A stretch of 64,000 nt of DNA from Nitrospirota bacterium. Its GTDB lineage: Bacteria; Nitrospirota; Thermodesulfovibrionia; UBA6902. Below, one piece after another: positions 5,481-10,899 of this stretch (its first letter is position 1; every line of letters begins with the position of its first letter). The DNA lies in assembly GCA_016215115.1 (NCBI GenBank), contig JACRLN010000021.1, forward strand, positions 6,424 to 70,423, in the 5' to 3' direction. The notes below the pieces were generated by a model that ran no database searches, was not told the DNA's origin, and saw only the letters and a list, made by a program, of their open reading frames with translations. The position numbers were made by a program, and so were the translations under genes.

Positions 5481-6234
5481 TTATAACTCGGTTTGACTCA
5501 TCCAACTTCCATGGGCAGTGCAATTGCTTATAACTGTAAGTTTGGCTGAAGTCACATCATTTAAATAAAACGTTACCGAAGGCTGGATTTTATCACATCT
5601 TAAAATCACTCTTCCAAGACATCTTTTCTTGATATCTAAAGATTGAAGATAGTAATCAATAAAAGTAATATGGTCTTCAATCTTCATGGTGTGACCAATC
5701 TGTCCAACTTTAACATTAACATCATAGCCACTGTCAGCGGCAGAATCATTTGCTTTTGAAATATTTATTACAGGAATATGTTTCTTTTCAAATTCGGTGA
5801 GGTTCTCAGGATCCTGTGGTCTCTTTATTACATCGGGATTATTTTCAAAATTCTCAATTGAAGCCCTGCATATAGGGCATTCTGTCGGCATTTGTTCAAA
5901 TGAAATATGCCCACAAATTTTACAAGTATATATACATACTTCCTGATTTGTCTTTTTTGAAAGTATTACAGAGGACTCCCATTTTAAATCTCTTACAAAT
6001 TCTAAATATTTCATGGATGGATTCAAAAGCTCAACACCCATGGCATCGACTAAATCATGTCGCTTTACCAATCTTTTAACTTTGGCCGGAAGCATAATAT
6101 GGGGGGCAGTTGTTAGCATTAATATGCATACCATTTTCTGAAAGATTAGTTACATTGCCAGAATAAACTGAATTGTTATACGAAAAACTCAACTGAAGAC
6201 ATGAGTTGACTCTTTCAAAGGCTCTTTTTTTCAT
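5481..6234 (-). pseudogene. PilZ - rubredoxin-like - superoxide reductase fusion, PilZ part frameshifted
   Basis: The gene starts at an ATG at 6232-6234 with a GGGAAGG ribosome binding site. The first frame gives a PilZ N-terminus with both c-di-GMP motifs (RAFER, an RxxxR; NLSENG, an NxSxxG) but stops 51 codons in. The adjoining frame, open from about 6134, carries the PilZ C-terminal part (LPAKVKRLVKRHDLVDAMGV). A rubredoxin-like site follows (YTCKICG...ECPICRA). The last part is a class II superoxide reductase domain with the expected iron ligands: KKHIPVI, QIGHTMKIEDH and SNCTAHGSW. The frames meet at a run of six G (6101-6106), and the PilZ part also looks some 15-20 residues short. So either the PilZ half is decayed or there is an assembly error there. 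The rubredoxin-superoxide reductase part (5481-about 5960) is intact and may be translated from an internal start. Confidence 0.72.
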
Positions 6235-6303
6235 AGTCCTTCCCTATCCTTTCCTACTTTGTACCATAATTATTCCAAATAGTCAATCAATTTTACTTAT
6301 AAA

Positions 6304-6327
6304 TTGCATAGTTGCGCAACTATGCAA
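6304..6327. promoter_or_regulatory. Perfect 24-bp palindrome, candidate operator
   Basis: TTGCATAGTTGC is followed directly by its exact reverse complement with no spacer. There is no T tract and a zero-length loop is poor for an RNA hairpin, so a dimeric protein binding site is more likely. It lies 70 bases upstream of the superoxide reductase fusion gene start. Confidence 0.45.
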
Positions 6328-9918: not shown

Positions 9919-10899
9919 TTAGTTTCTCTTACCAACCAATGTTTCCCCTAACGTAGCTGATGGGAATAATGGTCCTTCCTGGTACAGCGTTGGGAATATT
10001 TTCTCAAAAATTTCCACTATGGCCGGGTCAAAATGAGTGCCTGAGTTTTTAACTATATCCCTTCTTGCTTCAGAGGGTGTAAGTGCCTTACGATAGGGCC
10101 GATCAGCTGTTAAAGCCTCGTATACATCTGCAACAGCAACGATTCTTGCCCCAAGTGGGATGTCACTCCCTGACAGTTTGTTTTGGCCGCTTCCATCATA
10201 TCTTTCATGATGGTGCAGGATAATTGGAAGAAGATCAAGGACTTTGCTGCTCGAAGAGCCAAGCACATCTGTACCAATCCTGGGATGGTTATTTATTTCA
10301 TTCCGCTCATCTATAGATAATTTCCCGATCTTGTTAAGTGTTTCTGCACTAACCCCTAATTTCCCAATATCATGAAGCAGGGCGCCAATTCTTACATTGT
10401 CAATCTCCTCTTGAGAAAGTTGCATCGTACTTGCTATCATTTCCGATATTACTGAAACTCTAAATGAGTGGCTCTGAGTATATTTATCTGCATTATCAAT
10501 AATAACGGATAGCATTTCGATGATACCTCTGTATGTTCTATTGACTTCCCTCGATTTCTCCTCCTTTTTTTCGTAAAGTAATCCCATCGCATATCCTGTG
10601 ATAAGGAGAAACCCTCCCCACGTTACTATATCTAACCATTTGTATAACTCGCTTGTTTCGCTGAAATCAAAGGTCAAGGGATAAAAATAAGCTATCAAGA
10701 AAATCATAATAGCTGATAATAATGCTGCCTGGGTTGCATAGCGTTTTCCAAAATAATATGCTCCAAATAGCACCGGTATATAAAAGAAATTAAGAAAAGC
10801 CCGTTGATTTGCTACAAAAAAGAAAATCATTCCTGATATTGCAACAAGAAGAAAAGTAATAATCAGGTCTTTATTTATCTTATGAAAGTTCATTGTCAT
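9919..10899 (-). CDS. Membrane HD-GYP c-di-GMP phosphodiesterase
   Basis: 326 residues. The N-terminal third has four to five hydrophobic segments (about residues 12-110), forming a small membrane sensor. The C-terminal half is an HD-GYP domain: SHSFRVSVISEMIA, LLHDIGKLGVS (HD pair), HPRIG, then HHHERYDGSGQ (the GYP-loop region, reading YDGSG) and VADVYEALTADRPYR. The family degrades c-di-GMP. Its partners in the window are a GGDEF protein at 36123 and a PilZ-type fusion at 5481. The start has no strong ribosome binding site; a second ATG lies two codons downstream. Confidence 0.88.
   Translation of the reverse strand: MTMNFHKINKDLIITFLLVAISGMIFFFVANQRAFLNFFYIPVLFGAYYFGKRYATQAALLSAIMIFLIAYFYPLTFDFSETSELYKWLDIVTWGGFLLITGYAMGLLYEKKEEKSREVNRTYRGIIEMLSVIIDNADKYTQSHSFRVSVISEMIASTMQLSQEEIDNVRIGALLHDIGKLGVSAETLNKIGKLSIDERNEINNHPRIGTDVLGSSSSKVLDLLPIILHHHERYDGSGQNKLSGSDIPLGARIVAVADVYEALTADRPYRKALTPSEARRDIVKNSGTHFDPAIVEIFEKIFPTLYQEGPLFPSATLGETLVGKRN

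Follow-up and report, generated by a model that had tools for sequence, protein, structure and literature searches.

Does the window encode a superoxide reductase (SOR) that carries its own receptor for a second messenger? The known links between oxidative defence and c-di-GMP signalling run mainly through transcription or through the enzymes of c-di-GMP synthesis and breakdown. The question is raised by a gene on the minus strand (6234→5481) of the window, the whole stretch of 64,000 nucleotides of Nitrospirota DNA that was analysed. The first-pass annotation had described it as a fusion of PilZ, rubredoxin and superoxide reductase in one gene. The order of the domains is correct and recurs in 18 homologues that carry all three in one frame. 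The window copy itself is a broken member of this PilZ – rubredoxin-like – SOR-fold series and is spread over two overlapping minus-strand frames (6234-5481), the second of which opens with the tail of PilZ.

The disrupted gene in the window

The stretch 6100-6234 (minus strand) contains the gene start and the initial half of PilZ as far as P45. The corresponding open reading frame (6076-6234, minus strand, 52 aa) matches the Pfam profile of PilZ (PF07238) only at positions 2-45 of 102 (E 6.7e-5), so less than the whole domain is recognised. It contains both motifs that had been read from the sequence: RxxxR (6211-6225) and NLSENG, the local form of [DN]xSxxG (6130-6147). The PilZ tail (KVKRLVKRHDLVDAMGVELLNPSMKYLEFV, 5994-6083), as placed by alignment with intact homologues, now lies in the second open frame (5481-6134, minus strand, 217 aa). 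It is followed there by a rubredoxin-like domain at 5844-5930 (PF21349, RUBY_RBDX, E 7.8e-8) and by the SOR-fold domain at 5496-5798 (PF01880, Desulfoferrodox, E 3e-17). The profiles thus place PilZ in the first frame and both redox domains in the last part, as had been proposed. The four-cysteine site that had also been noted is present as CxxC-x11-CPxC (codons 5922-5924, 5913-5915, 5877-5879 and 5868-5870); the module is of the rubrerythrin type.

From the P45 codon to the codon equivalent to R69, the window has 28 nt vs 72 nt (24 codons) in the intact genes. The net loss of 44 nt inside PilZ, together with the change of frame, removes about 15 residues of the barrel and explains why the profile match ends halfway. 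The junction is located at 6072-6102 and adjoins a C6 tract (6101-6106). Programmed frameshifting was ruled out, because these residues are gone in addition to the frame. No damage is apparent in the promoter-like pair, at the start site (AGGACTATG) or anywhere in the redox frame.

As the PilZ domain is damaged, c-di-GMP control has probably been lost at this locus. The window copy is probably either a recent pseudogene or by now the source of an unregulated, two-domain-like rubredoxin-SOR product. Such a loss would be tolerable, since the same genome contains a second, intact copy (L002, 261 aa, G000:C32:220-1002). It is improbable that the break at this locus is a sequencing or assembly artefact and that the organism has an intact gene: the assembly does consist of 57 contigs, the C6 tract does lie at the junction, and there is no visible damage to the promoter, the start, the palindrome or any of the later codons, but a one-base misreading (of the C6 tract, for example) leaves the missing residues unaccounted for, and the second copy makes a real loss tolerable.

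Intact homologues and their PilZ domain

Uninterrupted homologues with the same order were looked for in related genomes and found. The 18 proteins comprise the copy from the same genome, three from public genomes (under the titles Bacterium BMS3Abin06, Nitrospiraceae bacterium and Nitrospirae bacterium) and the remainder from relatives; one (L054) is cut by a contig end. Their existence shows that the domain order is not due to chance and rules out a lone oddity. When four homologues were scanned with Pfam, all four displayed the same three-domain order with PF07238 above cut-off; PF21349, above cut-off in the window, stayed below it in all four. None of the NCBIfam models reaches its cut-off for the three-domain proteins, and this includes the domain model TIGR00332.

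When a full-length profile was run against 396 genomes of the phylum, the three-domain proteins listed all came from the Nitrospirota family to which the window belongs, and none from elsewhere in the phylum. Beyond the phylum, the search consisted of a scan with short exact peptide patterns, which is of low sensitivity and missed many known members. As far as sampled, the family thus appears to be confined to one Nitrospirota family. A search of plasmids for the fusion gave no match. A tree built on the rubredoxin-SOR part has a branch with support 99/94 that sets 13 two-domain proteins (about 150 aa) apart from the window copy and the 18 three-domain proteins; the window copy forms a deep branch on the three-domain side. 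Pairwise dN/dS values range from 0.03 to 0.52 and are below 1 in the PilZ, the linker-plus-rubredoxin and the SOR parts for all eight pairs compared; purifying selection acts on all three domains. Next to metF, which is 94-95% identical in five congeners, the fusion gene and its neighbours are lacking in these five genomes.

For the PilZ domain, Arg4, Arg8, Ser32 and Gly35 do not vary among the complete sequences, and position 30 has either Asp or Asn in every case. RxxxR and [DN]xSxxG are accordingly kept in every homologue with complete sequence. The whole PilZ fold is present in the intact homologues, as seen from PF07238 in the four that were scanned and from Foldseek. An AlphaFold model of one intact homologue (L003, 260 aa) retrieved SOR structures first and c-di-GMP-bound PilZ structures next; with a mean pLDDT of 72 and a pTM of 0.47, it is of moderate confidence and usable at domain level only. 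The window's own genome gives 20 GGDEF and 23 PilZ matches, and c-di-GMP can therefore be expected in the cell. From the conserved motifs, the PilZ domain of the intact copies most likely binds c-di-GMP.

Several other observations touch on this messenger. No c-di-GMP riboswitch was found ahead of the fusion gene in the window or in the nine loci searched. A c-di-GMP-I riboswitch (63.1 bits) is located at L043:6865-6944, two genes downstream of a three-domain gene. At 9919-10899 (minus strand) the window encodes what by eye is an HD-GYP protein with N-terminal membrane segments, likely a c-di-GMP phosphodiesterase near the fusion gene. Also by eye, two further PilZ proteins of the genome have partner modules. 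One (L136, G000:C8:35665-35955) continues with a Cys4 zinc-ribbon-like motif, a sigma-54-type AAA+ activator and a Fis-like HTH, and is possibly a c-di-GMP-controlled enhancer-binding protein. The other (L137, G000:C24:8152-8439) is fused to a glycogen-binding (CBM48-like) module. In the neighbourhoods of the fusion genes, nothing connects them with cyclases or with further redox genes. In the second subgroup, seven of the nine three-domain genes have downstream of them a gene for a ribosome hibernation factor that includes a cold-shock domain (L040:4305-4832, L048, L049, L052-L055).

Iron site and upstream palindrome

The four cysteines of CxxC...CPxC are invariant in all 18 homologues and in the window. 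By analogy, it is plausible that the rubredoxin-like domain donates electrons to the SOR domain behind it. The latter has the SOR fold, given the PF01880 match in the window, scores of 52-58 bits in homologues and the Foldseek match to the Nanoarchaeum equitans SOR (6gq8). The iron site is different. The complete His4Cys set had been assigned to the window gene, and three histidines and the cysteine are indeed retained (His119, His148, Cys205, His208). The second His of the H-x5-H motif, however, has been replaced by Asp154 (5673-5675), with His155 adjacent, and there are two additional cysteines, Cys172 and Cys180. The alignment of the profile with 6gq8 is ungapped across H-x5-H.

The same substitution is found throughout the family. 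His166, His190, His251 and Cys248 (L003 numbering) are invariant and the EKxH motif is retained, while the second His of H-x5-H has given way to Asp in 16 of the 18 three-domain proteins and to Asn in the other two. A histidine occupies this position, which we take to be His47 in P. furiosus and His75 in D. baarsii, in each of the 19 canonical SORs from relatives that could be parsed for the motif; six more were unreadable to the parser. The position is likewise His in all 14 sequences taken from loci at phylum level, two of which also belong to the set of 19, and in 13 of the 14 two-domain proteins. The residue after the altered ligand is a non-canonical His in the window and in 16/18 proteins, the exceptions being L039 (Arg) and L043 (Tyr). 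Cys214 and Cys222 are present in all 18 and in the window, and absent from the canonical SORs and the two-domain proteins. The L003 model predicts a hairpin (strands 198-207 and 213-219), in which Cys222 would be expected opposite residues 197-198 and near the ligand that has changed. Since Asp/Asn-for-His and the two extra invariant cysteines mark exactly the clade with PilZ, the sequences indicate that the gain of PilZ coincided with a remodelling of the iron site.

An SOR is defined by its Fe(His)4Cys ligand set (PMC3116461, PMC7280497). Asp or Asn takes the place of one of these histidines in each of the 18 proteins, as Asp does in the window. The initial proposal that superoxide detoxification is placed under a second messenger is thus a hypothesis and not a reading of the sequence, since the site lacks the canonical His4Cys. 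Ordinary SOR activity is perhaps absent, because one canonical His is missing in all members and the neighboring His also in two of them. The three-domain protein may still work like an SOR despite the altered set.

Upstream of the window gene, a promoter-like pair can be read on the minus strand at 6258-6286, TTGACT (6281-6286) and TACAAA (6258-6263) with a spacing of 17 nt; orthologues have the same layout. A perfect 24-bp palindrome (TTGCATAGTTGCGCAACTATGCAA, an exact window match at 6304-6327) is found about 65 bp ahead of the position at which transcription probably starts, and it probably serves as an operator or as the site of an activator. It is shared, in degenerate form, with distant orthologues: outside the bioD-linked group, 11 of the 12 three-domain genes have such a version upstream. 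In a shuffle test of these 11, at most 1/300 shuffles was as good for nine genes, with 14/300 for L048 and 11/300 for L043. The palindrome is absent from the bioD-linked and the two-domain genes. The pattern TTGCN4TTGCGCAAN4GCAA occurs at six sites in the own genome vs one for the reversed control (≤2 mismatches), and at 21 sites vs two in 37 genomes (≤1 mismatch).

In addition to the window site, these include G000:C42:19592 and 20614, C1:4656, C17:15221 and L152-L164. Among the genes downstream of such sites are those of a protein with a spore coat U domain, of a MopE-like protein with metal-binding repeats and of a beta-helix protein, and further ones whose products look secreted from their signal-like N-termini. 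Sites also occur inside a region with ArsR, ArsS and the arsenite oxidase small subunit. Several sites have a common spacing to a -35-like CTTGA. The palindrome would hence mark an undescribed regulon that includes the fusion gene, several secreted-looking proteins and the arsR/arsS/arsenite-oxidase region. ArsR as its owner is a lead only: sites near -65 look activator-like and those of ArsR/ArsS lie close to starts.

Proposed function and known systems

The reading that we prefer, at a probability of roughly 45%, is that of a family in which the c-di-GMP-bound PilZ domain affects a rubredoxin-like/SOR-type redox unit, the window gene being a disrupted member. In the intact copies, PilZ would bind c-di-GMP. 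The signal would then alter the feeding of electrons from the rubredoxin-like centre to the modified SOR-type iron, or else the location of the protein. The handling of superoxide or a similar oxidant would thereby be tied to a c-di-GMP-rich, probably surface-attached state. The c-di-GMP binding, the electron path, the oxidant chemistry and the link to matrix or surface genes are inferred. A more specific version is conceivable, and we hold it with less conviction. Here, the gain of PilZ went with a rebuilt SOR iron site (three His and Cys, Asp/Asn, the neighboring His and one or two new Cys), giving a c-di-GMP-gated protein with new oxidant chemistry or a redox sensor within the c-di-GMP network, expressed with surface/matrix genes from the common palindrome.

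An enzymatic role is argued for by the distribution of PF01880 matches in the genus of the window. In six of the ten genomes (G000, G001, G002, G003, G005, G009) the three-domain type is the sole PF01880 protein; G006 has both types, G004 and G007 have the two-domain type alone, and G008 gave no match. Counting against the preferred reading, a member of the Fe/Mn SOD family (L118, G000:C31:43311-43499; PF02777 E 9e-25, with a weak match of the N-terminal domain) would give the own genome a second superoxide defence.

The direction of the signal might also be reversed. The protein would then be a sensor rather than an enzyme: the rubredoxin/SOR part with its altered iron would sense superoxide, O2, peroxide or another ligand and report via PilZ to partners in the c-di-GMP network. 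This gains weight from the exact co-occurrence of PilZ, Asp/Asn-for-His and the two extra cysteines in one clade, and from a neighboring His that is not strictly kept. Three His, one Cys and EKxH are nevertheless retained under strong purifying selection on the SOR part, and several genus genomes have no other SOR-type protein; we rate the sensor as rather unlikely. Still less likely is a superoxide reductase of the ordinary kind, in which PilZ serves as a passive tether or for oligomerisation and c-di-GMP has no role. The SOR fold and most ligands are kept and the His one residue later might act as ligand, but the conservation of RxxxR and [DN]xSxxG in all members would then be needless, and the iron site is not an ordinary one.

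If the preferred reading, a PilZ domain acting on a redox unit, is true, a single chain with a probable c-di-GMP receptor and an SOR-type redox unit would link oxidative defence and c-di-GMP signalling directly. The clade-wide ligand change is a natural experiment on what an SOR iron site can become, and the family can be tested with small soluble proteins. The first-pass annotation knew of no described enzyme with this order. In agreement with this, no description of PilZ or c-di-GMP fused to superoxide reductase, desulfoferrodoxin or rubredoxin was found in the open full-text literature, the part of the literature covered.

Each part of the protein has known counterparts. With the single-domain PilZ receptors of c-di-GMP (4xrn, the Alg44 PilZ 4rt0 and MapZ 5xly) it has the fold, RxxxR and [DN]xSxxG in common; here, however, PilZ is joined to redox domains. 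With 1Fe-SOR or neelaredoxin (PF01880; 6gq8, 4bff, 1do6) it shares the fold, three His, one Cys and EKxH, and differs in the Asp/Asn at one canonical His, two extra cysteines and two extra N-terminal domains. The nearest sequence relatives are the two-domain rubredoxin-SOR proteins of the same bacterial family (L041, L044, L051, L057-L065 and others), which likewise have a rubrerythrin-type domain followed by the SOR fold. Unlike the three-domain type, they lack PilZ, the cysteines at 214/222 and the upstream palindrome, and nearly all keep the canonical His. By eye, some of their genes (L060-L063, L058, L061, L067) have as neighbours, in several genera, trkA/trkH-like genes for potassium uptake and a gene that resembles the one for S-adenosylmethionine decarboxylase.

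Among the seven SOR classes of SORGOdb, none has PilZ and the nearest is HTH-Dx-SOR (PMC3116461). Its build is similar, with a Cys4 iron domain between an N-terminal domain of regulatory type and an SOR domain. The proteins described here belong neither to this class nor to Dx-SOR: their cysteine spacing is CxxC-x11-CPxC and not CXXCX15CC, and there is no HTH match. Where HTH-Dx-SOR has an HTH, the three-domain type has PilZ, and the desulforedoxin of the former is replaced by a rubrerythrin-type domain. Finally, the SORGOdb classes carry centre II, whereas in the three-domain type one of its His ligands has been changed.
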